Source: Pseudoflavonifractor phocaeensis
GTDB taxonomy: Bacteria; Bacillota; Clostridia; Oscillospirales; Oscillospiraceae
NCBI RefSeq assembly: GCF_016901955.1
Contig: NZ_JACJLC010000003.1
Span: 1-64,000 of the forward strand
Length of the DNA: 64,000 nt
Direction of reading: 5' to 3'
Below the pieces are notes generated by a model. It was not told where the DNA came from, searched no databases, and saw only the letters and a program-made list of their open reading frames with translations. A program made the translations under genes and the position numbers. Shown piece by piece: positions 1-43,056 of this stretch (position 1 is its first letter; every line of letters begins with the position of its first letter).

Positions 1-109
1 CGGGACACGCCCGAACCCATACGCTCGGGGACACTGTGTAAGACCTCGCCGATGCAGGCTGTGGTGGGCGAACCGAGAATCCCCCGGCTTTAGCCGTGGG
101 GAGTGTCAA
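1..109 (+). mobile_element. Right end of an IS200/IS605-family element (tnpB/omega-RNA end)
   Basis: The segment ends with the short GC hairpin and GAGTGTCAA tail (about 82-109) that is characteristic of the 3' end of many IS605-type tnpB elements, where the right end and the omega (guide) RNA scaffold coincide. The last tnpB codons probably lie in 1-90, but I cannot fix the frame in so short a stretch. Position 109 abuts codons that read as RNase HI on the other strand, so the element is inserted in rnhA. The rest of the element lies outside the window. Confidence 0.6.
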
Positions 110-12821: not shown

Positions 12822-12968
12822 GTGTGCCGCCTCCTTTGTCAGCAACACACAATACCCGAACTTCCTCCAAATAGCCACCCCCAACCGCAACTATTTTCAG
12901 AAAGTTATCATCTGCGGGCAGGATTTTATCTTTGTATTGCGGTCCAGATTTTGATATGCCTGCCATAG

Positions 12969-26384: not shown

Positions 26385-28370
26385 TCAAATCACCTTCACC
26401 CGGGTATCCGGGGCCAAAAGCTTGAAAATCTCCCCCACGTTGATCTTCTCCGGGCTGGTGGCAAAGCCGCTGTCCCGGAACACGGCCCGGAGGGGCTTCC
26501 GCTTGGCGATCTCCCGGATGACGTTCTCCGGGATGTTTTCGTCAAAGCAGGCGATCAGGTCGCCGTCGTTGTAGGTGTGGACGGTGCAGCCCTCCACCTG
26601 CTCGGAGCGGTAGGGCATGGACAGGGGCAGGCCCCACTCCAACAGGCAGCCGAACAGCAGGTCCAGGTCCGTGCGGTCGGGCTTGATATTGCTCTCCATC
26701 TTCTGGAGCATCCCCTGGTCGTACTCCTGGGCGGAGTAGTAGACGTCCTCCATGTTGGTATCGTCCAGCTTGAGGACACGGAAACCAATATCCAGATCGT
26801 CCGCCATTTTCTTTTTAGCAGTAACAACTTCTGGGGAGTCAGACCATTCTGCATAAACGAACCCCATAGATGTTCCATGCTCTTTTTTGAACTTTTCCAT
26901 TGCACGAACGGCTGTTCCTTCTTCCTCCAAGGCCTTTTTTGCCATATCGCCCGCCCGGCGGATGCGTTCTTTGCCAATGTCGCATAAAGTTGAAAATCCT
27001 TCGCTTTTAATTGGTTGCGGCAACTGTACCATAATAAATTGACGATTTCCGCCATCTTCTGCATTCTGTGCCATAACTGCATGGGCTGTAGTGGCAGAAC
27101 CACAGAAGAAGTCCATGACAATGTCATGCCCGTCTCTCGTGGTTGCAATTTGTAGCATACGTTTAATTAAGCGGGTTGGTTTTGGAGTGTCAAATACATC
27201 TTGTGATGTAGCAAAACTAAGTAAACTCAGCAATTCTTTTTTTGCTTCTTGTGTATGTCCAACTTCTTCGTAGGACCAGTATGTCTGGGGGACAATTCCT
27301 TGTTTTACTTCTGATAAATATGTTTTAGGGGCTGGGATGTTATTGCCATCGGGTCCCCAGTAAATTCTTCCTTCTTTATCAAGTTGCCAGAATTTTTCTT
27401 CCGAGTATATCCAATAGCGTCCGGACGGTGGTCCTTCTATAATGCGTCCGCCAGGGCATTTTATAGGATATGTTCCCTTACTATAGTAGTTTCTGGCAGA
27501 AAGATTGTTTGGGCGCCACGGACCGCGAGGATCATTGTCTGGATTGGAATACATTGAATTTTGTTTTTCTGTACGTGGCAATAGATTAGGACGCCAGATA
27601 GCGGAACATTTTGTATATACAAGGATATAATCGTGATCTACCGAAAAATATTGCGCACTGGATTTCGGCGCATAATTTTTTCTCCAGATTATAGTCGCAA
27701 TAAAGTTGCCCGGTCCAAAGATTTCATTTGCAATTTTTTTCAAACTGTCCTGTTCATTGTCATCAATAGAAATGAAAATGACTCCATCATCCGTCAGCAT
27801 ATTTCTCGCCAGCATTAGCCGGGGATACATCATGCTACACCAATCGGAATGGAACCGGGGACTGCTCTCGGAGTTCTCCGCAAACTGCTTGTTACCCTCC
27901 TCGTCAAACAGGCCGATCTGCTGGTCGTACTCCTGCTTGCCCATCTCAAATCGGTCGTTGTAGATGAAGTCATGGCCAGTGTTGTAGGGCGGGTCGATGT
28001 AGATCATCTTCACCTTGCCCAGATAGGCCTCCTGAAGCAGCTTGAGCACCTCCAGGTTGTCGCCCTCGATATACAGGTTTTCGGTGGTGTCCCAGTTCTT
28101 GCTCTCCTCTGGGCAGGGGCGCAGGGTCTTGCGGATGGGCTTGTTAGCCTCCACGATGGAGGCTTTCTTGCCCACCCAGGTGAACTCGTAGGACTCGTCC
28201 CCCTCCAGCACATCGTCGGACAGCATCTGCTTAAGCAACTCAAAGTTGATGGCCTTTTTCAGCCCGCCCTTGCCGTCCGGGCCCTCCGTGACGCACCCAG
28301 GGAACAGGGCGGCAATCTTCTCTATATTCTGTGCCGTCAAGTCCGGCGTCTCAAATTTCATGTGGTCCAT
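26385..28370 (-). CDS. Type III DNA methyltransferase Mod (adenine-N6)
   Basis: Mod recognises the site and methylates one strand. The protein has 661 residues. Motif IV is MIYIDPPYNTGHDFIYNDRF (about 130-149) and precedes motif I DIVMDFFCGSATTAHAVMAQ (about 418-437), the beta-class order normal for type III. The central ~200 residues, from GNFIATIIWRKN on, are AT-rich, the expected variable target-recognition part, and contrast with GC-rich ends. GGAGG 9 nt upstream selects 28370. The TIR gene ends 15 bp upstream. Confidence 0.93.
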   Translation of the reverse strand: MDHMKFETPDLTAQNIEKIAALFPGCVTEGPDGKGGLKKAINFELLKQMLSDDVLEGDESYEFTWVGKKASIVEANKPIRKTLRPCPEESKNWDTTENLYIEGDNLEVLKLLQEAYLGKVKMIYIDPPYNTGHDFIYNDRFEMGKQEYDQQIGLFDEEGNKQFAENSESSPRFHSDWCSMMYPRLMLARNMLTDDGVIFISIDDNEQDSLKKIANEIFGPGNFIATIIWRKNYAPKSSAQYFSVDHDYILVYTKCSAIWRPNLLPRTEKQNSMYSNPDNDPRGPWRPNNLSARNYYSKGTYPIKCPGGRIIEGPPSGRYWIYSEEKFWQLDKEGRIYWGPDGNNIPAPKTYLSEVKQGIVPQTYWSYEEVGHTQEAKKELLSLLSFATSQDVFDTPKPTRLIKRMLQIATTRDGHDIVMDFFCGSATTAHAVMAQNAEDGGNRQFIMVQLPQPIKSEGFSTLCDIGKERIRRAGDMAKKALEEEGTAVRAMEKFKKEHGTSMGFVYAEWSDSPEVVTAKKKMADDLDIGFRVLKLDDTNMEDVYYSAQEYDQGMLQKMESNIKPDRTDLDLLFGCLLEWGLPLSMPYRSEQVEGCTVHTYNDGDLIACFDENIPENVIREIAKRKPLRAVFRDSGFATSPEKINVGEIFKLLAPDTRVKVI

Positions 28371-29014: not shown

Positions 29015-29839
29015 TCAAGCCTCAAATCGCTTTTTTATATCGTACAAACTAATTTTATCCAAGCAATCATTTGTGAGAACAATTTTCGCTTTAGCTGGAT
29101 ATTGAAATCGAATACGACTGACTTTGAACGTCCAAATAATTATTTCAAGAAGTTCTTGATCCGTAATATTTTCGTAGCCTCGGAAGCGAGTGATTCCTGA
29201 ACCAAGTAATGGTAAAACCACCGTGTTTCCACCATAATGAATATCACACTCATTCCACATATTCATTAGGCAAGAAGTGAAGTCATTAATCTCTAAAAAC
29301 GCACGATTATCTTTGTCAAAGTGGGTAAATGCAAGGAGAAAATATTCACCATTTTTTATTATAGTTCCAAGCCTATATTGGTTTGTCTTGCCAGTTTTTC
29401 TTTCGCATTTTCCAAGAATATATTCTGCTGAATGTGAATCTGAATCAATGGTTTTATCCAAGTCGGAGGGATTCAGATAAAAGCGGGTGATATATTGCCC
29501 ATTTAATGTGTTTTTTGAAATCAATGTGCCGTCTACTTTTGTATCAAAAAATTCGTTAAACGGAATAATTTTGAAACCATCCTCTAAAAAAATGTCACCC
29601 GTTTCGATTTCCATTGTTGAGTTATTTATTTTTAACGATATTTTCTTGAGATTATTCGCACGATACCACCTGAAAAGAAATACTACGACAAGAAAAATGG
29701 CAAACGCAATAAAGCAACATGTTTTTTTGTCATCGGGGATATCCAAAAACAGAAAAGTAAGTGAGGCAATAACGCTAACGATAGAGAGAGTTGCGTAGTA
29801 TTCCTTCCATAATTTCTTGTTTAGGAATTTAACTTTCAT
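29015..29839 (-). CDS. thsA: Membrane-anchored macro-domain effector, type II Thoeris ThsA-like
   Basis: The protein has 274 residues. Two N-terminal membrane helices (about 14-34 and 40-59) lead into a macro-like domain: IIKNGEYFLLAFTHFD, then GGNTVVLPLLGSGITRFRG (about 206-224), the phosphate-binding glycine loop. This domain order matches DUF6430 / ThsA of type II Thoeris, in which the macro domain binds His-ADPR and the membrane part disrupts the membrane. The TIR gene follows directly. The family call rests on architecture and neighbour; a stand-alone macro sensor is the alternative. Confidence 0.78.
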   Translation of the reverse strand: MKVKFLNKKLWKEYYATLSIVSVIASLTFLFLDIPDDKKTCCFIAFAIFLVVVFLFRWYRANNLKKISLKINNSTMEIETGDIFLEDGFKIIPFNEFFDTKVDGTLISKNTLNGQYITRFYLNPSDLDKTIDSDSHSAEYILGKCERKTGKTNQYRLGTIIKNGEYFLLAFTHFDKDNRAFLEINDFTSCLMNMWNECDIHYGGNTVVLPLLGSGITRFRGYENITDQELLEIIIWTFKVSRIRFQYPAKAKIVLTNDCLDKISLYDIKKRFEA

Positions 29840-30532: not shown

Positions 30533-32272
30533 TTACTTTAGCAATCCATTTTCTCTTAAATAGTCAAGGAACTTCGCCATTATTTCCTCGGTTCTATCCA
30601 AAATATCTTTTTCGGTAAAGTCTGTCAAAGTTTCAGAGAGATGATGCAACTCATGGTTTCTTGTGCCCTCCTTCTTCTGATTGCGACTATTCACAAAGCC
30701 TTGGTAATACTTGATTTTATCCTCAAAGCGATAATCAGCGGCACGGATATTGATGCGTTTTTCCAAAAGAGCCTTGTTTCCCAGCGCCTCCAGATTTTTT
30801 ACATCTGTTAGAGACTTATCTTTGTCATAGCGATTCCTGGCATAGATATGTTCAATCTCAAGTACCGTTTCAAGGGGAAAAAGCTCCTGATCATCATCTT
30901 GGAACGCCCACCATGCTAACATCGATTTTGTGATCGGTCTACTATTGTTGAATGTAAAGTTGGCAAACATGCTCTGCACCTTATCCGCCTCAAACTTGAA
31001 GTCGACAAAAGTAACGGGCTGGCTGTTGACGATACTGACCATCTCGGCATATACAGGGGTACGAAGTGCATTTACCCCAGGGTTTGTAACTGCATATGTC
31101 CAGATAAATCCAGTGATTTTGCTGAGGAACCGATAGAACTGGTCCTCATCTAACAGTCCTTCGCTATCTCGATTCTGCATAAAGAACACGGAAACAACAT
31201 AGGTCCACATACCATTTGGGGCATAATTTAATACAAATAGGCGGCGCAAAATCCGCTGTGAGAACCGATCTTTATCTTGATTGATGACATCCTCCCAAAA
31301 ATGAGCAAGTGTAATCAGATCATTAAACGTATCTTCTCTTTTGAGTAAGGTGTAATTGTCTTTCTCATAAAATTTGCGCAATGCTTCAGTCGTGGAAGAC
31401 TTGATTCCCTGCTTGGCACGGATATAATACATGTACCGTGTAAACAGTTCATCCATTGGCGTTCCGTTTAGCGGATGGAAAATTGATTCCGTTAATTCCT
31501 CCAGATCTTTCCACTGCTTAATAAATAGATCCTTTTTTCCGATATCAGAGTAATATTTGTAAAACTGTGCCTTGAAAATATCAGAATCAGAGAGTGGCAT
31601 TCCTCGGTCATTTAATGTTGAAAAGATTCGGAGCGCAGTGTCCTGCGATTCTGCTTCGATAGGGAGGAGAATGCAGTTGTTCATGATTCGAGTGGGTAAA
31701 TAAGCAAAATACGTCGGATACTTTGCTAAAAAGTCGTCAATACAGTTCTGAAAGAACCGGTAATTGGCGGCATATCTGCTTTTTTGCCCAGGTTTTACAA
31801 CACCCGTTTTCAATATCTCAAGAAATTCGTCTTTGTCTTTATCAGTGGCAACTTCAGAATCAATCTTTAGAGCTGACATATCAGGCTCACCAAATTCATC
31901 CGTTTTCCAGATACATTTCTCAATATTCTGTTTTGTAGCAACAGAGGCCTTGTCTTGCATGTGGCCAAATTTTTCATAGAAGGCACGTAAAAGTAGCATT
32001 AGCGTAGTAAGCCGTTGTTGTCCATCAATCACTTCCATCTTGGAGACACTATTTTTGAAAGTAACGATTGGTCCGAGAAAGTATTCACTATTACTGTCAA
32101 ATTCTGTGCGTCCTTCGTCTGGAATTGCGAATGAAAAGATATCATCCCAAAGGGTCTGACACTCAGTTTCACCCCACGCATAGGGACGCTGGTAATCAGG
32201 AATCAAAAAGTCTGCTCGTTTATCCTGGAATAAATCTTTAATTGTCTTTTGGTCCACGTTCAGCTTCGACAT
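30533..32272 (-). CDS. DUF262-DUF1524 protein (GmrSD-like endonuclease)
   Basis: The protein has 579 residues. The DUF262 half has FLIPDYQRPYAWGETECQTLWDDI and MEVIDGQQRLTTLMLLL, the ParB/Srx-like nucleotide-handling motif of GmrS. The C-terminal DUF1524 half has LEIEHIYARNRYDK and NLEALGNKALLEKRIN, the His-Me/HNH nuclease pattern of GmrD. Such fusions cut modified phage DNA in GmrSD and occur as subunits in other defence systems. It is co-directional with, and 42 bp behind, the large helicase gene. Confidence 0.87.
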   Translation of the reverse strand: MSKLNVDQKTIKDLFQDKRADFLIPDYQRPYAWGETECQTLWDDIFSFAIPDEGRTEFDSNSEYFLGPIVTFKNSVSKMEVIDGQQRLTTLMLLLRAFYEKFGHMQDKASVATKQNIEKCIWKTDEFGEPDMSALKIDSEVATDKDKDEFLEILKTGVVKPGQKSRYAANYRFFQNCIDDFLAKYPTYFAYLPTRIMNNCILLPIEAESQDTALRIFSTLNDRGMPLSDSDIFKAQFYKYYSDIGKKDLFIKQWKDLEELTESIFHPLNGTPMDELFTRYMYYIRAKQGIKSSTTEALRKFYEKDNYTLLKREDTFNDLITLAHFWEDVINQDKDRFSQRILRRLFVLNYAPNGMWTYVVSVFFMQNRDSEGLLDEDQFYRFLSKITGFIWTYAVTNPGVNALRTPVYAEMVSIVNSQPVTFVDFKFEADKVQSMFANFTFNNSRPITKSMLAWWAFQDDDQELFPLETVLEIEHIYARNRYDKDKSLTDVKNLEALGNKALLEKRINIRAADYRFEDKIKYYQGFVNSRNQKKEGTRNHELHHLSETLTDFTEKDILDRTEEIMAKFLDYLRENGLLK

Positions 32273-32314: not shown

Positions 32315-35300
32315 CTACTTCACCACCAAAAAGCAGATTAACTCAAAATCATCCAGCCCGGAGATCTGGGAGAGAAGCGCCGTCGTGCCGCCGCTTTTAA
32401 ACAGACTGTCAATGTCGCTCTCCTCCTTCACATCGATGATGGAGTTGACCGCCTCGCTCAGCAGTTCTGATATCTCAGCCATGTTCCGGCCATCGTCGGT
32501 CTCCTGATTGAATTCCCGGCAGAGGTCGGAAATAGGTTCCGTTCTGCCCCTGCACAGCAGGCGGATGGTGTCCAGCATCTGCTTGGGGTTGAGATAATCG
32601 CAGAGGATCTCGCCATCCATACCAATGTAGACCATGTAGAACGGATGGATGCGGTTTCGGTGGTCTACATTGACGCTGTCGTTGACATTCCGAAGGACGA
32701 AGATGGCTCCGGCCGGAGCGTCCTCCCGGGCCGGGACCACGGCGTGCATCCCATGGGGCGTGGTCTCCACATCATGGTGGTGCTTCATGTACTCCAAGAG
32801 ATCCAGACGGAATTCGTTGAGCCCCAGGTCCATGATGGAGATCCCGCTGGACATCTCCTCGATGTCCACGACTTCCTCCTGGAGCCGCTTCAGCTGCTGA
32901 CGGCGATACTCCAAATCTCCTTTTTCTTCGGCATTGATGGGGTCGTCATCGCCAGTAGAAGTCATAACGGAGATCTTCATGCGGGTCTCCACCCGGCTTT
33001 TCAGATTGATATATTCATCCAAGTCCATATCCGGCCAAAAATTCACCAGCTGGATCACCTGATTTCGGCTACCGATGCGGTCAATTCGACCAAACCGCTG
33101 GATGATGCGGACCGGGTTCCAGTGAATGTCGTAGTTGATGAGATAGTCGCAGTCCTGGAGATTCTGGCCCTCGGAGATACAGTCTGTGGCGATCAGGATG
33201 TCCAAGTCTTCCGTGTTGCCAGGCATCAAAATATCCCGGCCTTTCGAGATGGGGGAAAAGCAGGTAAGAACCGTATTCAAGTCCGCTCGCAAACGAGGAA
33301 TCGTAGTCTTGCCGTCTACGGTGCCCGTGACCTCCGCTGCGTTTAGCCCAAAATTCTGTTTGACAAAGGGAGCGACTTGCTGATAGAGGTAGTCCGCAGT
33401 GTCGGAAAAGGCGGTGAAAATGATGATTTTTCGATTTCCAGGATTGATTGGATGTTCTTGCTTCTCCCAAATCAAGTTCAGCAGCGTTTGTAGTTTGGTA
33501 TCATGCTCCGGTGTGATGTCGCCGATCATTAGGGAGAGCAGCTGCAAATTTTCGGCGTCTTTTTCCAAATCCCGCAGCCAGGAGAGGTAGTCCATATCTG
33601 CCAGATCGATTTTGACCTTCCGGCCCACGGAGAAATAGTCGGTATTCTGGTCATCCAGGTCAAATTCATCAGCGTCAGAAAGGTCTTGCAAATCCAAAAG
33701 CTGCTCGCCGGACTGGTAGGCGTGGATCGTCTCAATGGTCGACTGGATCAGGTGATAGACCCGGTCAATGGTGAGCCGGAAGGCGTAGACCGAACTTTCT
33801 AATCGCTTGAGCAGATTGATGCTCATCAGGCGTCGAATGCCTTCCTCACGGCCTTTCTGGGTCAGGCTTGTCCCCTTGTTATGGGTGAGGTCCTCGTATT
33901 TGGAAAGTCGGGAGGCCATGATGTAATAGGTGGGGGTGTAGATTGAAAGATTCAGAGAGATCAACAGTTCATAGATCTGATTATAGTTGATGGCATCCCC
34001 AAGATCGGTCAGGCAGGGACGCAGGGAGATGGGCTTGAGCCGCTCCGGAAATTTTCCAATATCCGTGGTATCGTAATACTTTTCGATGTGCCGCCGGGAG
34101 CGGGCGATGGTCACGCTGTCCAGAACCTCAAAGAAGTCAAAGTCCAGCATTTTCAGCAGTGCATCCGTAGTGCGTTCTTCGGCAGGTAGACGGCTCCACA
34201 CGTTAAAGGCTTTCTGGGCCCGACGGAAAATCTCATCAATGGAGGTGCTGGTGTCCAGTTTCTCATTGATTTGAGCGGAATCCCCCTCATACGCCAGTGC
34301 CAGCTGATTTTTCAGATCGATGAATCGGTTGTTGACCGGGGTGGCGGAGAGCATCAGAACTTTGGTGCGGACGCCTGCCCGGATCACCTTATTCATCAAT
34401 TTTAAGTAGCGGTTTTCCTTGGCGTCCTCACCGGAAACTTCTCCGCCATTGCGGAAGTTATGACTCTCGTCGACGACCACCAGATCATAGTTGCCCCAAT
34501 TCAGGCGATCCAAATCAATGCCGTTGGATTTGCCGTGTTCCCGGGACAAATCCGTATGATAGAGCACGTCATACCGCAGACGATCCTCGGCGATTGGGTT
34601 GTTGATGTAATTCCCTTTGTAGGTGTTCCAGTTCTCGGACAGCTTTTTAGGGCACAGGACCAGAACGGATTTATTGCGGTTTTCGTAGTATTTGATGACT
34701 GCCAAGGCGGTGAAGGTCTTGCCCAGGCCGACGCTGTCCGCCAGGATACAGCCGTTGTACTTTTCCAATTTGTTGATGATGGCAAGGGCGGCGTCCTTCT
34801 GGAAGTTGTAGAGCAGGTTCCAAATCTTGCTCTGTTTGAATCCCGTTGCCTCGTTGGGCAGAACATCCTCGGAGATGTCTTCCAAAAATTCGTTGAAAAT
34901 GTTATACAGAGTAAAGAAATAGATGAAGTCAGGGGAATTCTCCCGGTAAGCAGTGGAGATACTGTCAAGAACGATTTCAGTGACATTTTGGAGCTTCTTT
35001 TCGTCGTTCCAAAGCTCTTCAAACAGTTTCAGGAAATATCGGCCATTCTCATAGCTCTCCGTCTTCTGGACAGGATAATAGGCGTTGTTGCCCCGTTCAC
35101 AGCCCAGATCCACGGTGGTAAAGCCGTTGATGGGCATATAGGTGCTCTCATCCACCGTTAGAAATCCCATCATCTGTTCCTGCGTCACATTGGACTTGAA
35201 AGTCACCTTTTTCCGTACCCAATCAGCGCACTCTTTGGCAATGGCCTTTTGGGTCAATTCATTGCGCAGTTTGATCTCAAAATCAGTCCCGTACAGGCTG

Positions 35301-35539
35301 CGCTCCCGGTTCAGCCTGGGAATATAGAACTCCCGCTTCTCTTTGGGAATCTTCTCCTGGATGAATGTAGGCGAAGTGAAAATAAACCGCAATTCATCCA
35401 CGCTGTCCAGCTGCTTCTTCAACTCTTGATAGGCGTAGATGGAAAAACAGGCGGCAGCGATGGACACCCTGCTTCCTTTTTTGATAGAGACCTGCAAATC
35501 AGACCGCACTGTCTGATTGATATTATCTAATATCTGCAT
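32315..35539 (-). CDS. SNF2-type helicase with N-terminal PLD-like domain
   Basis: The protein has 1074 residues. The N-terminus (SIAAACFSIYAYQELKKQL, FIFTSPTF) is the phospholipase-D-like domain seen in this helicase class. The helicase core has CILADSVGLGKTFTALAVI (Walker A, about 266-284), LVVVDESHNFRNG (motif II), VLMLSATPVNN (III), ILIATDCISEGQNLQDC (V) and IIQRFGRIDRIGS (VI). It is the first large gene after the HTH regulator, 11 bp from it. Its role is probably to scan or translocate invading DNA for the downstream modification and cutting subunits; that is inferred from position. Confidence 0.88.
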   Translation of the reverse strand: MQILDNINQTVRSDLQVSIKKGSRVSIAAACFSIYAYQELKKQLDSVDELRFIFTSPTFIQEKIPKEKREFYIPRLNRERSLYGTDFEIKLRNELTQKAIAKECADWVRKKVTFKSNVTQEQMMGFLTVDESTYMPINGFTTVDLGCERGNNAYYPVQKTESYENGRYFLKLFEELWNDEKKLQNVTEIVLDSISTAYRENSPDFIYFFTLYNIFNEFLEDISEDVLPNEATGFKQSKIWNLLYNFQKDAALAIINKLEKYNGCILADSVGLGKTFTALAVIKYYENRNKSVLVLCPKKLSENWNTYKGNYINNPIAEDRLRYDVLYHTDLSREHGKSNGIDLDRLNWGNYDLVVVDESHNFRNGGEVSGEDAKENRYLKLMNKVIRAGVRTKVLMLSATPVNNRFIDLKNQLALAYEGDSAQINEKLDTSTSIDEIFRRAQKAFNVWSRLPAEERTTDALLKMLDFDFFEVLDSVTIARSRRHIEKYYDTTDIGKFPERLKPISLRPCLTDLGDAINYNQIYELLISLNLSIYTPTYYIMASRLSKYEDLTHNKGTSLTQKGREEGIRRLMSINLLKRLESSVYAFRLTIDRVYHLIQSTIETIHAYQSGEQLLDLQDLSDADEFDLDDQNTDYFSVGRKVKIDLADMDYLSWLRDLEKDAENLQLLSLMIGDITPEHDTKLQTLLNLIWEKQEHPINPGNRKIIIFTAFSDTADYLYQQVAPFVKQNFGLNAAEVTGTVDGKTTIPRLRADLNTVLTCFSPISKGRDILMPGNTEDLDILIATDCISEGQNLQDCDYLINYDIHWNPVRIIQRFGRIDRIGSRNQVIQLVNFWPDMDLDEYINLKSRVETRMKISVMTSTGDDDPINAEEKGDLEYRRQQLKRLQEEVVDIEEMSSGISIMDLGLNEFRLDLLEYMKHHHDVETTPHGMHAVVPAREDAPAGAIFVLRNVNDSVNVDHRNRIHPFYMVYIGMDGEILCDYLNPKQMLDTIRLLCRGRTEPISDLCREFNQETDDGRNMAEISELLSEAVNSIIDVKEESDIDSLFKSGGTTALLSQISGLDDFELICFLVVK

Positions 35540-35550
35540 AACGGACTCCT

Positions 35551-35796
35551 TCAGCGGTTAGAAGTTTCGGGACTTTCGGCAGGACATTCCTTTTTCTTTC
35601 GATACTTCTCGGAAAAACCGATATATTTTCCGCTTTTGATCCTGGCGTCACCAGGCTTTTGAGCGTCTTTTGGAATCGCCCAGCTTCGCCCCAGGCGCTC
35701 TGCCCCAGAGATACGGCCAGAGGCGCACAGGATCTGGACCCGGCGGGAGCTGATCCCCCATTTTGCAGCCGCATCAGAAATGGTCATGTAATCCAT
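35551..35796 (-). CDS. Small HTH regulator heading the defence operon
   Basis: This 81-residue protein begins MDYMTISDAAAKWGISSRRVQILCASGRISGAERLG, a MerR/excisionase-like winged helix, and ends in a basic tail. AGGAGGG lies before the ATG at 35796. The helicase gene starts 11 bp after its stop. Proteins of this kind often head defence operons on clostridial elements and probably set their expression. Confidence 0.8.
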   Translation of the reverse strand: MDYMTISDAAAKWGISSRRVQILCASGRISGAERLGRSWAIPKDAQKPGDARIKSGKYIGFSEKYRKKKECPAESPETSNR

Positions 35797-35841
35797 CTGG
35801 ACCCTCCTAATCGACAGTACTACAAATTTCTCTTAATTCTG

Positions 35842-35870
35842 ATAGTACACGATTTGGCGAATATTATCAA
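35842..35870 (-). promoter_or_regulatory. Promoter of the defence operon
   Basis: On the minus strand TTGATA (35870-35865) and TACTAT (35847-35842) are separated by exactly 17 bp, about 45 bp upstream of the HTH start. The -35 box matches five of six consensus bases and the -10 box four of six. Confidence 0.5.
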
Positions 35871-36041
35871 CATAAATCTACAATTTTAGCCTGTCGTGCC
35901 CCGGTTCCTTCGTGTTGTGTGGCACGACCTGTCATATGTAGAAAATTTGTAAGTTTACTATCGTTGTGAAACCGAATTTATTCCAATATAATAAAACTAA
36001 AGTAAATGGTGAGGATTTTCATAGAGAGCAGGTGTCGAAAA

Positions 36042-36716
36042 ATGATTGACCCTACCATGGAAAAGAAAAACGAATCCGTCTTTCCCGCTACTTTTCCTGG
36101 TGCCCCGGTGATCTACCTGAATACTTACTCTAACGAGGGGCAGAAGGTATATGAGGCTGCGCAGGCGGTCGGTTGTCCACCCTTTTCCCTGGTGGCCGTC
36201 AGCGACTTGGACTGGAACCGGGACATGGCCCCGTGGGACAGCCCGGCGGCGTTCAAGAACGGGGAGCCCTTCACCGGCGGGGCAGACGACTACCTGCGGC
36301 TGCTGGTTGAGGAAATCATACCCAGGGCAGAAAAAGAGCTGGTCGGGCCTCCGGCGTGGCGGGGAATCGCCGGGTACTCTCTGGCGGGGTTATTCGCCCT
36401 GTACACCATCTACCAGACAGATGTGTTCTCACGGGTGGGGTGCATGTCCGGCTCCCTGTGGTTTCCAGGTTTCAAGGAATACGTCTTTTCCCATGAGCCG
36501 AAGCGCCGGCCAGACTGCATTTATTTCTCTCTGGGGGACAAAGAGGCCAAGACCCGCAATCCAGTCCTGAAAACAGTTCAGGAAAAAACAGAGGAGATTC
36601 AGACCTTTTACCAGAACAAGGGCATCGACACGGTGTTCCAGCTGAATCCCGGAAATCACTTCGCCCAGGGGATTGAACGGACAGCGGCAGGCATCCAGTG
36701 GCTGCTGAACAGATAG
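36042..36716 (+). CDS. Alpha/beta-hydrolase, esterase family
   Basis: The protein has 224 residues. GIAGYSLAGLFALY (about 108-121) contains the nucleophile elbow G-x-S-x-A/G, and GNHFAQGIERT near the end holds the probable catalytic His. SLGDKEAK in between offers the Asp. The fold resembles the IroE/Fes-type enterochelin-esterase and D-family esterase proteins; the substrate is not evident. The start is uncertain: 36042 has AGGTG about 9 nt upstream, and 36006 is an alternative. It is transcribed away from the defence operon. Confidence 0.75.
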   Translation: MIDPTMEKKNESVFPATFPGAPVIYLNTYSNEGQKVYEAAQAVGCPPFSLVAVSDLDWNRDMAPWDSPAAFKNGEPFTGGADDYLRLLVEEIIPRAEKELVGPPAWRGIAGYSLAGLFALYTIYQTDVFSRVGCMSGSLWFPGFKEYVFSHEPKRRPDCIYFSLGDKEAKTRNPVLKTVQEKTEEIQTFYQNKGIDTVFQLNPGNHFAQGIERTAAGIQWLLNR

Positions 36717-36737
36717 ACCGCAGGCTGTAGGCTTTTA

Positions 36738-36817
36738 TTCTTTGAATAGGCGTGTGAAAAACTGATACGCTCACTGTTGATAAAAGACTTGCTTAACCGC
36801 TGCGGCAGAGGTACAAT
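36738..36817 (+). repeat. Dispersed repeat, copy 1
   Basis: TTCTTTGAATAGGCGT then AAAAACTGATACGC, followed about 20 bp on by GACTTGC and GGCAGAGGTACAAT. Copies 2 (37367) and 3 (42044) share the first block; copy 3 also shares the second. Confidence 0.55.
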
Positions 36818-36837
36818 ACCCAAAACCCAGAGTCGTG

Positions 36838-36898
36838 AAAAAACGCTTCCCGGCCGGGGTTGGCAGACACTTGCCGCCCCTGGTCAGGAAGCGTTTTT
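36838..36898. terminator. Large hairpin with T-run beside a shared 20-bp motif
   Basis: AAAAACGCTTCC and GGAAGCGTTTTT form the outer stem, and an inner GC-rich part can pair further. It is followed at once by GACCCCATATTTGACCACAG (36899-36918), identical to 2658-2677 beside the tRNA-Pro array. Confidence 0.5.
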
Positions 36899-36918
36899 GA
36901 CCCCATATTTGACCACAG

Positions 36919-37366
36919 TCAGGACCGGAACACATGGAAACAGCGGATTTAAGAGGGTCAAAAAATATTCAATACTGAACGGAAAGTGCCGGAAAGCACT
37001 ACAAATCACCACAAAAAATTTGGTTCAAGCGTTTGGGTATTTCATGCAGCAGAAACGAGTAAATTGCAAAAAAGTTGCTAATATCCAGCTAAAGTGCAGA
37101 AAATATTCCTAATAGTCCAATAAAAATCACAACCTTTTATAGTCGGCATCCGTTTTGACCACATGCCATTCTATGAAATTTGATTATTCCGAACATAAAC
37201 GCAAGAAAATTGCCTCCATTTTTGCATAATCCGTCATTTTTAGTACATAAATTCGGTGGTCAAAAATTGCAGTCGATTATTTATGCCTACTGATACTATA
37301 ATTTTATCTCCCATTCCAACTAAGCATCGATCGTACATTTTATATTGGAGATTTCAGAGCGCTTAT
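36919..37366. other. AT-rich spacer without recognisable gene
   Basis: The 450 bp have no open frame with a ribosome binding site on either strand. Short runs repeat the phrase GAC/TTTGACCACA in diverged form (for example near 37155). It looks like the decayed edge of one or more integrated elements. Confidence 0.5.
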
Positions 37367-37400
37367 TTCTTTGATTATGGCATGTTAAAAACTGATATGC
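37367..37400 (+). repeat. Dispersed repeat, copy 2
   Basis: TTCTTTGATTATGGCATGTT then AAAAACTGATATGCCTGC. On the minus strand the same bases form the last codons of a 34-codon ORF ending at 37375. Confidence 0.5.
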
Positions 37401-37479
37401 CTGCTGCACGGATTTCTTCGATGCTTTGGTCAGATATTGGCTCACGCTTGATGTCATTTTCAAAGCAAACAATTCTCAA
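37375..37479 (-). CDS. Tiny ORF 2 downstream of the TOTE gene (or frameshifted C-terminus)
   Basis: Starting at a TTG that overlaps the stop of the ORF before it (TTGA), the frame reads RIVCFENDIKREPISDQSIE and ends with AGISVFNMP: 34 residues with protein-like composition. It could be translated by coupling, or it could be the C-terminal part of a single gene broken by a frameshift. No family is recognised. Confidence 0.35.
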   Translation of the reverse strand: MRIVCFENDIKREPISDQSIEEIRAAGISVFNMP

Positions 37480-37625
37480 TTTAATTCCTCGAGCACAAGC
37501 ATACGCACTGGCTGGTCAATGGGCATACGTCCCCCTTCGGCCTTAAGTCCGGACACGATTTCCTGTATATTCGAAATAGAAGCCACCGGGTTATGGCTTT
37601 TTCTTCCGGGCACTAACGCCGCCAT
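37476..37625 (-). CDS. Tiny ORF 1 downstream of the TOTE gene
   Basis: ATG at 37625 opens a 49-codon frame reading MAALVPGRKSHNPVASISNI, then QEIVSGLKAEGGRMPIDQPV and MLVLEELN. It lies 45 bp behind the TOTE stop on the same strand and has a weak AAAGAAAG upstream. It may be a small operon partner or a relic. No family is recognised. Confidence 0.35.
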   Translation of the reverse strand: MAALVPGRKSHNPVASISNIQEIVSGLKAEGGRMPIDQPVRMLVLEELN

Positions 37626-37669
37626 ATTCGCTTTCTTTGTTTTTAAGAAAAATACCCTGAAAATGCCCT

Positions 37670-40600
37670 CTACATTGAAACATCTTCTATGACAAACTGT
37701 ACGCTTTCTGCGTGACCGGAAAGGGATAAGAACTCACCTGCAATATCCGGGTTTTTGAACCGAAGTACATCCGTATCTTTTCTGCCAAACGAAAGAAAAT
37801 CCACGCCGCCATACCACACAATGCTTTCATCAACAACGGCATACCGCTGATTGAGCGCCTTGTGCGCATGAACCACAATGCCCGCCTGTTCCAGCATCTT
37901 GATCGCTTCACACACACTTTTTTGAATTGAGAGTTCTCTGCTCTCTGCTGTTCTGATATGGACCGCAATTTTGGCGCCGGAAGCAATCGCCTTCTGTAAA
38001 TGGGGAAGAAGTTTCACGATTCTGCCTTTTTGCAGATAGGGACTGACGATAACCACGCTGCGGGCGGCATCATCCAAGTCCTGCTCAAAGGGAAGCATAG
38101 ATGAGTATCCATCGTAAATCGCGCTGACAGACTGATCCGCCGCACCGAATTTGACCTGATATCCCAGTTCTGCATAGCCCTTCAGGCGTTTATGATACAT
38201 CCGCTCCAATGTAGGAACATGGATATCCACATAATCGTAGATACGAACTTCCTGCTTTCCCTCATAATTTCTGTGGAGACGTCCGGCATACTGCGCCAAT
38301 GTACCTTTCCACGATATGGGCATCGCAAGAAGCAAGGTATCCAACCGCGGGGCGTCAAAGCCCTCTCCAATATACTTTCCGGTGGCAACGACCACCACAT
38401 CCTCATCGTCAGGCACATTCTGCAATGCTGTCAGTTTATCACGCTTATCCCTTTGCTTGTCACTGCCAATGAGCAGGAAAACATGTTTCACCTGGTCCGA
38501 CAGATGACTGGCGAGCAGTATAGCGTGTTCCTTCCGCTCTGTCAGCAGAATCGGTGTGCGCCCCTCCTGAACCAACTTCAACGTGTCTGACACCAACAGT
38601 TCGTTCCTGTTGTGATTTTCAATCACACCGGCATACATATCCTGAATCCCGTTGGCATCCGGCAGCCTTAGGCGTGTGAATCTGGGAATTACCATGTGGG
38701 AGAATCTTTGCTTTTCCGCCTGACTTTTGGCATCCACCAAATACCGGACGGGGCCGCACTGCATAAAGATGATGGGATGATGACCGTCCTTGCGGACAGG
38801 AGTGGCAGACAAACCATAAACATATTTGGCTTCAACTGCTTTCAGCACGGTTTCGAAGGTGAATGCGGCCACATGATGGCACTCATCTACAATGACCATT
38901 CCGTACTCTGCCACAAATGACTTTACGGTCTTCTCTTCTCTCTCAAGCAAGGACTGCATGGTGGCAATATCGACGATCCCGCTGCGGGTATTCTTTCCGC
39001 TGCCGATTTGGCCAATGAGGTGCTGTTTTTTCTTCCTGCCACGCTTTTTGGGCAGTTCCGGCAGGACCTCATGAATATTCAGAAATTGTTCCAGCGAGGA
39101 TTTCCACTGTTCCAGCAACGCGCTGGACTGCACCAACACCAGGGTATTGACTTTGCGCTGTCCAATCAGATAGGCGCCAATCACAGTTTTCCCAAACGCA
39201 GTAGTTGCGGACAGAACGCCCATATCTGCATCCAGCAGCGCTCGGGCGGCAGGTTCCTGTTCTGGGCGCAGCACCCCATTGAATTCCACATCAATGGAAC
39301 GTCCCAGTGATCTGTGATCCTCCAGAATGACAGGGACTTCATATTGCTCGAATAATCCCTGAAGTCCATCCATACAACCGCGGGGAAGGCCGATATAGTT
39401 CTCATCCTCATATCCGCAATCCAGTACACGAGGAATGCCATATACGGAAATGCGCATGGCTTGCTTGGAGCGAAATTCCGGATTTGGAAACGCCGCAAGC
39501 CGTTTGAGCGTATTCAACGCCCCTTGAGAGAAGTCCTTTTTCTCAATGTAAATCAAATTGGAACTATACAGGCTTACCTGCAGAGGAAAATCTTTGCGCA
39601 TCAGTTTCGTTTGGGTTCGCTTGCGTTTCCATGGAACCTGCTTCTCCTCAGCATCTGCCAATTCTCCAATGTCCCCATGATGACATAGTTTCCTTAAAGC
39701 TTCTTCCAACTTTTCCGGCGTGATTTTTGGCAGAGAGGACAGAAACGCCCACTGATCGGGATAAGGCTCAAAGCGATCATCCACAAACAGAGAATTTCCG
39801 TCTTTCTGCGCCTGCCCTTGGAATGGCAGCGCAATCAAATTCCCAAAACCGCCCTTCGGCACAAAATCTTGAGAGGGGAACAAGCGGTCGTAGGATGAAA
39901 AGGATAGCTCATGCCGACACGACATGGTGCGAGTCAGCAAACCGGTGCCCAAGCGTCTGGCATCGGCGGCAGAAACAGGCTCCGAAAAGAAAAACCAGAC
40001 ATGGGCTCCGTTTCCGGAACGGGAGCGTTCCACGGCCGGGACCAGTCCCGCATCTTTGCAGGATTTACAAAATTCCGTCACATCAAGCTTCCAGTTTTCT
40101 TCATCAAAATCCGCAGCCAACAACCAGGTTCTGTTGTCCTCCAGCATCGGATAGATTGCCGCCACATCTCTGCACAAAGCATCACGGCCCATCAAATGCG
40201 CCTTGACCACATCGGCCGTGAGCGGCCGAAACTCACGATTGGGACACTCTGCGCACCTGTATTTCTTTTTATCGCACAGGCCATGCATCCATTCATTTTT
40301 GCAGACTGGGGTGTAACCGGTTTTTCCGGTGGTCGTGCTGTGATACCGGCGTGCATATACATCTTCCCGCCCTTTAAAGACAGAGAGGAAATACTCGATT
40401 TTCTCCTGTGAGGAGCTATGTGCATGAATCGGGGCAGACCGCATATCCGTTAGCGCACAGCTGCGCCACAACGACTCAGAGCATGCCGCTCTCTTGCCAT
40501 TCTCATCTTTACAAAGGAGGAGCGACTGCCCTCCATCCAGAGACGGGATTATTTCAAGAAGCATATATTCTCGGCCTTTGATGATTGCTTTTCGGTTCAT
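37670..40600 (-). CDS. TOTE conflict-system protein: AEP primase + SF2 helicase + PLD-like domain
   Basis: The protein has 976 residues. After a Cys cluster (CKNEWMHGLCDKKKYRCAEC, about 113-132) an archaeo-eukaryotic primase domain follows, with WLLAADFDEENW (metal-binding acids) and ERSRSGNGAHVWFFF. The helicase part has LSATTAFGKTVIGAYLI (Walker A), MVIVDECHHVAAF (II), VYGLSATPVRKDG (III) and LAQYAGRLHR (VI). The C-terminus, RYAVVDESIVWYGGVDFL, is a PLD-type strand with a degenerate HKD. Proteins of this build are the TOTE conflict systems proposed as anti-invader factors. The AlbA-type gene lies 23 bp upstream in the same operon. Confidence 0.85.
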   Translation of the reverse strand: MNRKAIIKGREYMLLEIIPSLDGGQSLLLCKDENGKRAACSESLWRSCALTDMRSAPIHAHSSSQEKIEYFLSVFKGREDVYARRYHSTTTGKTGYTPVCKNEWMHGLCDKKKYRCAECPNREFRPLTADVVKAHLMGRDALCRDVAAIYPMLEDNRTWLLAADFDEENWKLDVTEFCKSCKDAGLVPAVERSRSGNGAHVWFFFSEPVSAADARRLGTGLLTRTMSCRHELSFSSYDRLFPSQDFVPKGGFGNLIALPFQGQAQKDGNSLFVDDRFEPYPDQWAFLSSLPKITPEKLEEALRKLCHHGDIGELADAEEKQVPWKRKRTQTKLMRKDFPLQVSLYSSNLIYIEKKDFSQGALNTLKRLAAFPNPEFRSKQAMRISVYGIPRVLDCGYEDENYIGLPRGCMDGLQGLFEQYEVPVILEDHRSLGRSIDVEFNGVLRPEQEPAARALLDADMGVLSATTAFGKTVIGAYLIGQRKVNTLVLVQSSALLEQWKSSLEQFLNIHEVLPELPKKRGRKKKQHLIGQIGSGKNTRSGIVDIATMQSLLEREEKTVKSFVAEYGMVIVDECHHVAAFTFETVLKAVEAKYVYGLSATPVRKDGHHPIIFMQCGPVRYLVDAKSQAEKQRFSHMVIPRFTRLRLPDANGIQDMYAGVIENHNRNELLVSDTLKLVQEGRTPILLTERKEHAILLASHLSDQVKHVFLLIGSDKQRDKRDKLTALQNVPDDEDVVVVATGKYIGEGFDAPRLDTLLLAMPISWKGTLAQYAGRLHRNYEGKQEVRIYDYVDIHVPTLERMYHKRLKGYAELGYQVKFGAADQSVSAIYDGYSSMLPFEQDLDDAARSVVIVSPYLQKGRIVKLLPHLQKAIASGAKIAVHIRTAESRELSIQKSVCEAIKMLEQAGIVVHAHKALNQRYAVVDESIVWYGGVDFLSFGRKDTDVLRFKNPDIAGEFLSLSGHAESVQFVIEDVSM

Positions 40601-40623
40601 GCACAGCCCCTCCGCACCAGCAG

Positions 40624-41928
40624 TTACTTCCGTCTATACTTGGTTTTTCTGCCGTTTCCGTCCTGATAAATCAGGCCCTCAGCTACCATGCGTTTCAGAA
40701 TCCGGTTGGCTGTGGCCTGGCTTACCTCCAGCAGCCGGTCCACATCACTGCGCACAATATAGCCATGGGAACCAATAAAATCCAGAATCCGTTTCTCGTC
40801 GCCTTTGATCGTGCCAACCAATGTCTCTGCATGATTTGCGCCAGTATTCCTGTTGGGCAGCGTGATTTTAAATGCATTGCTGGATACTTCGATTTTGGGC
40901 TTTGATTCCGACTCCGTGTAGGCATTCATGATTTTAGGCATACCCGTGCCGTATGCCTCAATCAGCTGCAGACGATAAAATATGGCTGCCAACTTGGGGT
41001 TTCGGCAAACCGAGAGTCCCAGCATAATGTCGTCCAGTGCAATGCCGGAGGGCAGTCCACCCACAGAGACAAATTCGATTCTGTCTGCATATACACTGAC
41101 AATGGTGCTTGCACGGAAGGAATAGTCTCTGTGGACCAGCGAGTTCAACAGTGCTTCCCGCAGTGCATCTTCCGGATAATCCCGTGTGTCGATTCGGTAT
41201 AGTCCATCAAACGTTGCCTTTGTCTGGTTGCGCATATCCAGATAGCTGTACAGCTCCTCCATCTGCTGAAACAGCGAACCGCTAAATTCTCTTCTATCCT
41301 GAAAACTGCCTTTATCTTCCCCCGAGAAGGTCGCCGCCTTGATGGTGCTGGGACACTGGTCGGACAGGAGCAGCGCCACATTGGAGTAGATACCATCCGC
41401 CGAAATCATCCCAAGGGTCTGCATTTTTGCGGCGTCAAACGGAATATTCTGCTTCTCGAATTGCTTCTCCGCCGCTTCAAAGCTGAGGTTTTGTTCCAGC
41501 GAACGCATGGATTCAAAGCTGTCGCCATCGGTTTCCTTAATCATTTTTCGGATTGCAGTATCTGTAGCCGGATCAGACGACGTGCCGTTCCTGACATAGA
41601 CCCCACTGGGTTTCAACCCCTTGCTGCTCAAATAATAGGGGCGGTCGGTCCCTTTTTGAATGGTCACAGCGATGATATCCTTGTCACTGACATGTTGGGC
41701 TTCATAGCCCACAAACATGGTCACATCAGGCTTGATGGAATCTCGAATCATATTGTTCATCTGTAAAATGACTTGGTCGGCGTTTTTGACTCCCACAACA
41801 CTTCCATCGTTGCTGACGCCAATATACAGCGTACCGCCTTTGGTGTTGGCAAAGGCAATGACTTCTTTACAAATATCACCCACGATCTCCGCCTTTAGCT
41901 CAACAACTTCGCTTTCAACAAATGCCAT
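40624..41928 (-). CDS. AlbA_2/Schlafen-type ATP-binding regulator
   Basis: The protein has 434 residues. The N-terminal AlbA_2 domain has ESEVVELKAEIVGDICKEVIAFANTKGGTLYIGVSNDG. The middle HATPase-like part contains ALREALLNSLVHRDYSF and YGTGMPKIMNAY. The C-terminal winged helix is GYIVRSDVDRLLEVSQATANRILKRMV. This is a common regulator class in bacteria and is often placed next to defence genes. It is driven from a consensus promoter with direct repeats and is followed 23 bp on by the TOTE gene, so it is the probable controller of that gene. Confidence 0.88.
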   Translation of the reverse strand: MAFVESEVVELKAEIVGDICKEVIAFANTKGGTLYIGVSNDGSVVGVKNADQVILQMNNMIRDSIKPDVTMFVGYEAQHVSDKDIIAVTIQKGTDRPYYLSSKGLKPSGVYVRNGTSSDPATDTAIRKMIKETDGDSFESMRSLEQNLSFEAAEKQFEKQNIPFDAAKMQTLGMISADGIYSNVALLLSDQCPSTIKAATFSGEDKGSFQDRREFSGSLFQQMEELYSYLDMRNQTKATFDGLYRIDTRDYPEDALREALLNSLVHRDYSFRASTIVSVYADRIEFVSVGGLPSGIALDDIMLGLSVCRNPKLAAIFYRLQLIEAYGTGMPKIMNAYTESESKPKIEVSSNAFKITLPNRNTGANHAETLVGTIKGDEKRILDFIGSHGYIVRSDVDRLLEVSQATANRILKRMVAEGLIYQDGNGRKTKYRRK

Positions 41929-41955
41929 ACATAGCGCCTCCTCTTCTTAGTTATC

Positions 41956-41984
41956 ATTATAGTCATTCTTGTCATTCTTGTCAA
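41956..41984 (-). promoter_or_regulatory. Perfect consensus promoter with repeat operator
   Basis: On the minus strand TTGACA (41984-41979) and TATAAT (41961-41956) are both full matches, 17 bp apart. The spacer is a tandem repeat: GTCATTCTT occurs twice on the plus strand (41962-41979). A repressor bound to the repeat would sit exactly over the promoter. Confidence 0.75.
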
Positions 41985-42043
41985 ATTCTATTCATCCGAC
42001 AAGAAACTGATTCCGACCTGTCAACGCCCTGACCCGAGAATAT

Positions 42044-42123
42044 TTCTTTGATTAGGCGTACTAAAAACTGGTATGCCTGCGGTGCAGAAATGACTTGCAT
42101 GTCCTTGAAGGCAGAGGTACAAT
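42044..42123 (+). repeat. Dispersed repeat, copy 3
   Basis: TTCTTTGATTAGGCGT then AAAAACTGGTATGCCTGC, followed by GACTTGC and GGCAGAGGTACAAT as in copy 1. It lies at the left edge of the conjugative element. From 42124 to 42266 there is no gene. Confidence 0.55.
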
Positions 42124-42266
42124 TTTTCAAACCTGGAGTGAAAATACCTCCTATTTGGGCATATGCTCCGTCATATCAATTCCATGGCCCCGGAGTCTTG
42201 GCGCGGAAATCCACCGCCCAAAAAAGCGATGCGTCCCCCTCAGAAGAAGCGGAAGGAGGCGGAACG

Positions 42267-42671
42267 ATGAAGCGGGAAAACGCGGGTGCAAAGCCAACCC
42301 CACCGCCCAAGCTGCCGCCAGAGGCGGAGCAGGAGATCCTGGATGCGCTGTTCGAGGGAATGGAGATCCACTCCAGCGAGATCGCCGCGATCCTGAAAAA
42401 GCATGGGGTGTGCGGAGACGCGGAGGCCCTCCAGGACAGCTACCGCAAACGCCTGGGTCAGCGTCTCATGGCCAGTCTCCGGGATGATACCGGGCGGCGT
42501 GAGGTGCTGGCCAACGGAAAAGGCAGCTATGTAGTGCTGGAGGGCTGCGGCGACAGGCGGCAGCTCAAACAGATCCGTCGCCGCATCCAGCGCCAGATGA
42601 ATGGGCTGGATCTCTCGGCGCGGAAAGTGTCCGGCAGGCTGACTGTTCTGGAACGGCTGACCCAAAAGTGA
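42267..42671 (+). CDS. Uncharacterised conjugative-element protein
   Basis: The protein has 134 residues: a Pro-rich start (AKPTPPPKLPPEAEQEIL) and then a helical body (ALFEGMEIHSSEIAAILKKHGV, RQLKQIRRRIQRQMNGLD). I do not recognise a family. GGAGG 7-8 nt upstream selects the ATG at 42267 over the longer frame from 42048. It is the first gene of the plus-strand block of the element. Confidence 0.6.
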   Translation: MKRENAGAKPTPPPKLPPEAEQEILDALFEGMEIHSSEIAAILKKHGVCGDAEALQDSYRKRLGQRLMASLRDDTGRREVLANGKGSYVVLEGCGDRRQLKQIRRRIQRQMNGLDLSARKVSGRLTVLERLTQK

Positions 42672-42687
42672 AGAAGGGCTGGTTGAG

Positions 42688-43056
42688 ATGGACGCAAAGA
42701 CATTCTATGAGCAGCTCGCCCCAGAACTGGACCCAGGTGGCTTCAAGCTGTACTTCACAGCCCAAAGGCTGACAGGCTTTGAGCTATATAAGCAGTTCCC
42801 TTATGAGGACTCCCGCGGGATGTTTGAACTGATGAACGGTCATCAGCTCATGCGCTATCTGCTGGCGGATCAGTTCCATGCCATCCGCTGGGAGATCGTA
42901 CCTGGAACCTGCTACGAACGGGCCGTCCTTCTCCCTATCGACCGCACCACACCGGCATATCGGGCATTTGAGCAAAAGCTGTACACAGCGATACTGCAAA
43001 ACTACCATCTAAATCCTCAGAAACAACATGATCGGAAGGAGCACGATACCAGATGA
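42688..43056 (+). CDS. Uncharacterised conjugative-element protein
   Basis: The 122-residue protein MDAKTFYEQLAPELDPGGFKLYF.. is soluble with mixed helix and strand. No family is recognised. It begins 16 bp after the previous stop and its own stop overlaps the ParM-like start by 4 bp, so it is probably co-translated with the partition genes. Confidence 0.6.
   Translation: MDAKTFYEQLAPELDPGGFKLYFTAQRLTGFELYKQFPYEDSRGMFELMNGHQLMRYLLADQFHAIRWEIVPGTCYERAVLLPIDRTTPAYRAFEQKLYTAILQNYHLNPQKQHDRKEHDTR

Follow-up and report, generated by a model that had tools for sequence, protein, structure and literature searches.

In a stretch of 64,000 nt of Pseudoflavonifractor phocaeensis (NZ_JACJLC010000003.1, positions 1 to 64,000; assembly GCF_016901955.1), hereafter the window, two genes at 37670-41984 encode a 976-aa primase-helicase (37670-40600, minus strand) and a 434-aa DIP2311-like protein with an AlbA domain, likely a regulator (40624-41928, minus strand), with a gap of 23 bp between them. 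The pair is best explained as a two-gene operon, most likely anti-phage, which on balance probably travels as one unit of a defence array whose units are delimited by a recurring site of 49 bp. The division into units, the single orientation of the sites, the nature of the cargo and the association with recombinases were all evident from the sequences. The wider reading, that an integron-like platform exists in the order (Oscillospirales), in which paired tyrosine recombinases and the 49-bp site collect, order and exchange whole anti-phage systems, is plausible and was held with slightly less confidence than doubt. If such a platform is real, the primase-helicase/AlbA pair is one of its cassettes, at least some cassettes have a promoter of their own, and changing arms around a fixed core would give each genome a private site family.

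The site was recognised as 49 bp in which a palindrome with changing arms is followed, at a fixed distance, by the core TARACAAAGAA (22 sites aligned). A covariance model, R1, was built on 22 sites chosen by eye from regular-expression matches, at loci that had been retrieved for their primase-helicase or for the site pattern; the training genomes were G000, G300, G301 and G303-G306 (genomes, contigs and loci are designated G, C and L), among which only G000 appears with a match in the survey of the order, and the E-values given by R1 are rough. Within the window, R1 placed a site upstream of the pair at 42034-42081 (35.5 bits, E 2e-8) and one downstream of it at 37357-37405 (39.9 bits, E 1e-9), both members of the training set, as well as the next site of the array at 36728-36775 (22.3 bits, E 1.4e-4) and another just upstream of the recombinase genes at 12918-12964 (21.4 bits; E 2.5e-4 in the window and 0.0043 over 75 sources). 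All four lie on one strand, the minus strand. A possible decayed terminal site beside tRNA-Pro (3020-3067, minus strand) scored 11.6 bits, which at E 0.17 is not significant alone. The direct repeats had first been read as the ends of a small transposon, which was given up, and then as a cis-mobilizable element (CIME) at tRNA-Pro, which was kept as a rival explanation; it was the genome-wide search for the site that led to the array reading.

In that search, R1 had a match at E<=0.01 in 85 of the 197 genomes from the order and, counted among the matches listed, at E<=0.001 in 61 of the 197. Outside the order, within the phylum, 7 of 247 genomes were matched at E<=0.001, the kinship column and its sorting being the basis for placing all but G000 and G066 outside the order, with 220 unmatched genomes left unlisted. 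Among the 150 matches listed, 24 contigs carried at least two sites, and every neighbouring pair within 45 kb (41/41) pointed in the same direction. Around the gene itself, in 80 primase-helicase loci from other genomes, the best 80 of 574, there were 35 matches at E<=0.1 and 34 of these were on the gene's strand, a count that takes in the training loci L005, L016, L020, L025 and L041. A site stood upstream of the operon in 15 of the 80 loci, at a distance of 91-118 bp in 13, and it was present whatever the partner gene, be it AlbA, an AAA_14-DUF4143 protein (L013) or a helix-turn-helix (HTH) protein (L020). The palindrome gave a covariation score of 0.254, compared with 0.112 +/- 0.022 for shuffled alignments (0 of 500 shuffles reached it), and its double-changed cells exceeded all 500 shuffles. 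Core-pattern matches were also dense in G306 (19 versus 4 in the control), where on contigs C182, C250, C198, C221 and C211 (L139-L142 and L158) the sites lay as little as 116-281 bp apart and so enclosed units too small for a gene.

The flanks of the operon were compared with those of its relatives. The DNA shared with near relatives, at about 80-92% identity, comprised the operon with its promoter and little else. The near clade was defined as 14 of the 80 loci (L004-L012, L014-L017 and L026), the other 66 being more distant, and most neighbours of these 14 loci were unrelated. A common context was seen for L006, L011 and L017 (fully for L006 and L017), the Pseudoflavonifractor-type loci L004, L008, L014 and L026 had 0.3-0.9 kb in common, and L005, L007 and L015 had 2.4-2.7 kb in common downstream and only about 0.4 kb upstream; in L005 (G301:C25) the common downstream stretch holds a tyrosine recombinase. 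The window operon is flanked by repeats at 36749, 37379 and 42055, and the same kind of site brackets the operon in relatives. Five Gemmiger-type loci (L005, L007, L009, L015 and L016) carry a different palindrome followed by the same core, and their homology to the window stops at 42058, 4 bp beyond the core; in L006, L011, L012 and L017 it stops earlier, at 42004-42006. An initial annotation of this DNA had described the pair as a self-contained defence cassette, a description that was abandoned, the pair being one unit of what reads as a multi-system array.

The position of the site, 91-118 bp ahead of the operon at 13 of the 15 loci, together with the small palindrome, would also suit a regulatory or terminator element shared by defence operons, which would make the site no recombination site at all. 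This explanation is improbable. The tandem recombinase genes of G408 and G441 stop 8 and 22 bp short of the last site observed, so that the site also follows recombinase genes, paired sites occur 116 bp apart without a gene between them, the site coincides with a breakpoint of homology, and an Rfam scan of 35000-43000 gave no match.

Between the two sites downstream of the operon lies a unit of 0.6 kb (36776-37356, no strand assigned) which, read by eye, holds no convincing gene; neither that reading nor the Rfam scan gave support for a protein or a known RNA. It contains GTTTGGG at 37031-37037, a motif that abuts a tRNA-Pro 3' half in several relatives. Units of 0.6 kb between two sites recur in several genomes (the window, L110 at 9865-10468 and L124 at 10124-10726), with a strong hairpin, TTTGACCACA repeats, GTTTGGG or GTTTAAG near the middle and no convincing gene.

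At the other end of the window array, two tandem tyrosine recombinases were identified by Pfam on the minus strand, the first of 402 aa (11307-12515) and the second of 529 aa (9734-11323). The first is 52-62% identical to the first recombinase of the pairs in G305:C70, G145:C103 and G304:C24, and the second is 55-57% identical to the partner recombinases of the same three. A hidden Markov model built from 23 recombinases of other genomes matched 10 of 12 arrays (stretches of 13-58 kb) compared with 1 of 10 control stretches (20 kb each), with a tandem pair in 7 arrays; no match was found in G403:C1 or in G066:C28, the latter over its first 13 kb only. In array G455:C2 a reverse transcriptase gene (L196:4871-6577) adjoins the tandem recombinases.

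The DNA between about 42 kb and 9.7 kb reads as one array that includes the primase-helicase pair, with a cargo that reads as type III restriction-modification, a ThsA-type macro-domain protein, a GmrSD-type protein and an Snf2 helicase. These are encoded, all on the minus strand, by a type III restriction enzyme gene (22574-25636, PADLOC 7e-286), a type III methyltransferase gene (26385-28370, PADLOC 1e-218), the ThsA-type gene (29015-29839, Pfam and PADLOC), the GmrSD-type gene (30533-32272, Pfam) and the Snf2-type helicase gene, a PADLOC HKD+Snf2 candidate (32315-35539, C3a139, 5e-124). In other genomes, units between sites held DISARM parts and a Gabija pair, BREX genes and type I restriction genes, and DruE (a Druantia component) and DndH-like proteins; the BREX, DISARM and Gabija arrays are from genomes fetched through the primase-helicase. 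For 10 of the 12 arrays one protein each, the largest cassette protein inside one fetched stretch, was compared with random stretches of the same genomes, and PADLOC matched 7/10 in the arrays versus 2/10 in the controls (one-sided p 0.035), the two control proteins matching weakly.

The arrays may instead be tandem accretions of integrative mobilizable elements (IMEs) and CIMEs at a tRNA gene, the 49-bp site then being an inner end and not a crossover point. The tRNA-Pro halves close to the ends of some arrays, the relaxases and the genome-specific end blocks make this a serious rival, and it was considered possible, if somewhat doubtful. In L112, L113, L117, L118 and L121, reading by eye showed, about 300 bp outside the site, a GTTTGGG that enters a tRNA-Pro-like 3' half (GGGAGTTCGAGTC...), with a related half in L116; ARAGORN called no whole tRNA at these loci. 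An intact tRNA-Pro was called at 2694-2769, on one side of the window array, and a MobL relaxase occurs in the recombinase unit of G305:C70 and, in the window, in the unit next to the recombinases (13708-15516, minus strand, Pfam, with Sel1 repeats). However, the G306 sites are spaced too closely for such elements, the homology of the five Gemmiger-type loci stops at 42058 and not at GTTTGGG, and the same core occurs with quite different outer ends. A degenerate tRNA-like copy was seen by eye just upstream of tRNA-Pro, at 2512-2580, and was not called by ARAGORN. The stretch from 42127 to 64000 carries a conjugative element with genes for an actin-like ALP protein, an S-adenosylmethionine synthetase, a relaxase and VirD4- and TraG/VirB4-like proteins, and this element, beside the array, may truncate it on its outer side.

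Within the operon itself, the promoter shared by the two genes, TTGACAAGAATGACAAGAATGACTATAAT (41956-41984, minus strand), was identified by pattern search and conservation. It has exact -35 and -10 boxes with a 17-bp spacer and is the sole TTGACA-16..18-TATAAT of the window, where shuffles lead one to expect 0.01; in the 3.5-Mb assembly the exact 17-bp form occurs 31 times, compared with once for the reversed pattern. A tandem repeat of period 9 (41954-41983, minus strand; 3.3 copies, 90% matches), a likely operator, spans both the spacer and the -35 box and is kept in 14 cassettes. All of the features reported in the initial annotation, namely the two genes, the 23-bp gap, the exact boxes 17 bp apart and the tandem 9-bp repeat in the spacer, were thus found as described; its weak point proved to be the phospholipase D (PLD) domain discussed below, and its interpretation was supported in part. 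Across 14 cassettes, the window's included and several of them near-identical strains, 26 of 29 promoter columns were invariant, versus 11 of 60 directly upstream.

A link between regulator and promoter, as the initial annotation had proposed, was borne out by this conservation and by the distribution of the promoter. The exact form was present in each of the 13 near-clade loci that bear AlbA, and in L010, which has lost the AlbA gene, the -35 box is TTGAAA instead of TTGACA. The distant loci L023, L025 and L028, which have AlbA upstream and a readable 5' end, each carry the exact TTGACA and TATAAT boxes 17 bp apart, accompanied, on inspection by eye, by repeats or palindromes of another kind; L060, also with AlbA upstream, has no exact promoter and its start looks frame-shifted. 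Among 13 TOTE-type operons with a different upstream partner, including L073 in which AlbA lies downstream, the exact promoter was seen in one (L020). The consensus promoter therefore tends to accompany AlbA, at least in the loci compared. The stronger statement that such a promoter demands repression was not supported, as L010 retains an intact 976-aa primase-helicase; since it does so without the AlbA gene, derepression is not obviously lethal.

The same locus bears on the suggestion that the pair is an abortive module of toxin-antitoxin type, AlbA restraining a lethal primase-helicase. In favour of such a module, the repeats overlap a strong promoter tightly, and at other loci HipA, AbiEii, Fic and PIN proteins are among the partners. 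However, the effector of L010 is intact in the absence of AlbA, albeit behind a weaker promoter, and the alternative partners are often of toxin type themselves, so that this arrangement is unlikely.

The 434-aa protein has the three-part architecture of DIP2311, with SLFN_AlbA_2 (E 1e-21), HATPase_c_4, which resembles a GHKL-type ATPase, and a DIP2311-like C-terminus with a MarR winged helix in Pfam. Its nearest solved structure is DIP2311 itself (3lmm; profile 5e-24, Foldseek 4e-20), followed in Foldseek by GHKL kinases at above E 0.001; the AlphaFold model used was moderate (pLDDT 75.9, pTM 0.52). Only three SLFN_AlbA_2 matches were found in the window's genome. The protein is most likely an autorepressor. 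It is rather improbable that it is instead the effector, a Schlafen-type RNase with the primase-helicase as its sensor or helper. Its profile matches to SLFN nuclease cores, and its retention beside a broken (L016, L026) or shortened (L012) primase-helicase, would fit that role. The SLFN nuclease active site comprises three acidic residues. E5 and E10 are retained, and N40 or G40 takes the place of the third in the window clade; this substitution argues against the role, as do the winged helix, the repeat-bearing promoter and the naming by Pfam of the C-terminal family after a transcriptional regulator.

For the primase-helicase, Pfam gave AEP-TOTE (PF22548) at residues 66-300 with E 9e-95, an SF2 helicase domain at approximately 443 to 790, and PLDc_2 at the C-terminus with E 0.0095, below its cut-off. 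Taken together with motifs, AlphaFold and Foldseek, the protein comprises a CAPP-like prim-pol with a four-cysteine motif, an XPB-like SF2 helicase and a degenerate PLD-like C-terminus. Its AlphaFold model (pLDDT 84.3, pTM 0.72) retrieved XPB/TFIIH helicases (3e-19) and the Marinitoga CAPP structure 7nqd (TMt 0.82) in Foldseek, and a search with sequence only also retrieved XPB, Rad25 and Marinitoga prim-pol chains. In 59 aligned proteins the zinc cysteines, DxD, GxGxHxW, Walker A, DECHH and QYxGRLHR were invariant or had one exception. The PLD signature was variable, with the histidine in place in 33/59 and the lysine in 36/59. In the window protein HxK(x4)D reads N-Q-R-x4-D, and N-Q-R was found in 9 of the 10 near-clade proteins aligned, the window's included, the tenth, from the cut-short L012, reading G-Q-R; the catalytic histidine was missing in all 10. 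With the catalytic histidine gone and an arginine in place of the lysine, the PLD-like end probably serves for binding or dimerisation only, and because the third SLFN acid is also replaced, neither candidate nuclease centre looks intact.

The initial annotation had also called this a TOTE protein. TOTE stands for TPR, OB, TBP and Effector (PMC12458937), and the effector domain, the AEP domain, was present. No TPR, OB-fold/cold-shock or TBP gene was found among the 29 window proteins scanned with Pfam, operon and neighbours included, or among the 19 upstream neighbours of relatives that were scanned from the neighbours of the 80 loci. The name was thus retained for the domain and dropped for the system: because no such partner occurs among the genes scanned, the primase-helicase appears to be an effector domain of the TOTE name without a TOTE system. 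PADLOC applied to the window proteins returned PrimPol (6e-84) and partial helicase matches, as single proteins and not systems. No close copy of the primase-helicase was found in a plasmid collection, where 957 records matched, 6 covered at least 80% of the protein and the 20 listed best were 41-46% identical to it, or in a phage collection, where 1,699 records matched, none at over 80% coverage and none at >60% identity.

The initial annotation had made its interpretation depend on conservation of the AlbA-type regulator beside TOTE genes, and this was found to be partial. AlbA is present in 13/14 near-clade loci, the exception being L010, whereas tblastn found AlbA-type proteins in only 6/66 distant loci (L023, L025, L028, L060, L071 and L073), in four of which (L023, L025, L028 and L060) AlbA lies directly upstream. 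Besides these four, 19 of the 66 distant loci had their upstream neighbours scanned. The partner was AAA_14-DUF4143 in five, AbiEii in two, SNF2 in two and a protein without family in two, and HipA, Fic/RhuM, YhcG, PIN, HTH, XamI/methylase, DUF6398 and pyruvate kinase occurred once each. With such varied neighbours in these 19 loci, the partner slot of the primase-helicase appears swappable, AlbA being one recurrent occupant. The AAA_14-DUF4143 ATPase, directly upstream in L013, L021, L027, L041 and L047, is a second recurrent partner beside AlbA.

A mechanism can be proposed for the operon and its array. The winged helix of the DIP2311-like protein would bind the TGACAAGAA repeats over its own promoter and hold the operon low, and the ATPase and SLFN/AlbA parts could act as the release switch. 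On release, the CAPP-like prim-pol and XPB-like translocase would open invading or replicating DNA, prime on it and disturb replication. The recombinases most likely act at the sites by cutting and joining there, so that units would be gained, lost and reshuffled.

Several observations weigh against the interpretation of the operon as a mobile anti-phage unit of such an array. Recombination at the sites was deduced from the sequences, no excision, circle or empty site having been seen. Only four sites stand out in the window, the stretch from 36728 down to 12964 is a single unit of 24 kb that holds many genes, no site match was obtained in L006, L010, L011 and L017, and of 24 distant genomes reached through the loci 5 have a site match at E<=0.01. 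In the palindrome, pairs changed on both sides (6 versus 5.5) and extra pair types (16 versus 14.8) were not above shuffles, and a register slid by -2 still scored 0.223. The recombinase comparison was made on the stretches of unequal length given above. The 200-400 bp beside each site are genome-specific and common to unrelated units, which plain cassette movement leaves unexplained. As for the operon, conservation of the promoter spacer could be inherited, an intact effector persists without its regulator in L010, and where the effector is broken or shortened (L016, L026 and L012) the AlbA beside it is intact.

What assembles defence islands and drives their turnover is an open question, and the arrays may show how gut bacteria, to which most of the named members of the order among the loci belong, collect and swap anti-virus systems. 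With a boundary that can be searched for by a model (found in the 85 genomes above) and candidate enzymes adjacent to it, the gain, loss and shuffling of defence become directly testable, and a search for the site offers a way of finding unknown defence systems as cassette contents. For the primase-helicase pair, the analysis adds a repeat-bearing consensus promoter and a regulator that likely senses ATP, and it narrows the effector to priming and helicase activity rather than a PLD nuclease. No title or abstract start listed in searches of open-licence literature described site-delimited defence arrays in Clostridia.

Integrons are arrays of units with one-orientation sites that combine a variable palindrome and a conserved core, with a site sequence specific to the genome; chromosomal integrons have a private site family in each genome, and the consensus boxes of their attC sites are RYYYAAC and GTTRRRY. 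The arrays described here resemble them in their one-orientation sites (41/41 pairs), a foldable arm (covariation in part), a variable palindrome beside a conserved core, a site sequence particular to each genome and tyrosine recombinases in or beside the array. They differ in that units are multi-gene operons of up to 16-24 kb, often with a tandem recombinase pair, and in that the window unit has its own promoter. No integron integrase IntI (TIGR02249) was found over the cut-off in 8 genomes, general tyrosine recombinases matching TIGR02249 weakly everywhere, controls included; the R''/R' pair of attC boxes was found in 0/53 sites and GTTRRRY at the core in 1/53. A classical attC/IntI reading was ruled out on these two results. 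The arrays thus appear to work like integrons in architecture, their membership failing on the integrase and the attC consensus.

Other published elements are close in one respect or another, the tyrosine recombinase classes of PMC8138268 being among the closest seen. IME8 has two adjacent tyrosine recombinases, Int1-Int2, and a third protein, Hp3 (PMC13239906). IMEs, CIMEs and IME8 have in common with the arrays an adjacent tyrosine recombinase pair, a MobL relaxase (two cases here) and tRNA-proximal ends, whereas the arrays have short units without a mobility gene, bounded by the 49-bp site and not by a tRNA core, and Hp3 was not recognised in them. GInts, according to PMC5385486, combine three integrases and ginD with imperfect end repeats of 10-17 nt around one cargo block; like the arrays they have several adjacent tyrosine recombinases and a large cargo that includes restriction systems, unlike them they have neither the usual two recombinases nor the many internal sites seen here. 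With TOTE conflict systems (PMC12458937) the AEP domain is common, the TPR, OB/cold-shock and TBP genes being absent among the neighbours scanned here. Among the window proteins scanned, no CRISPR genes were recognised. CAPP (7nqd) and XPB provide the nearest folds for the effector, which here unites the prim-pol and the helicase in one fused protein, and regulators of the DIP2311 (3lmm) kind share the three-part architecture of its partner, which here stands in an operon with a defence-type effector.

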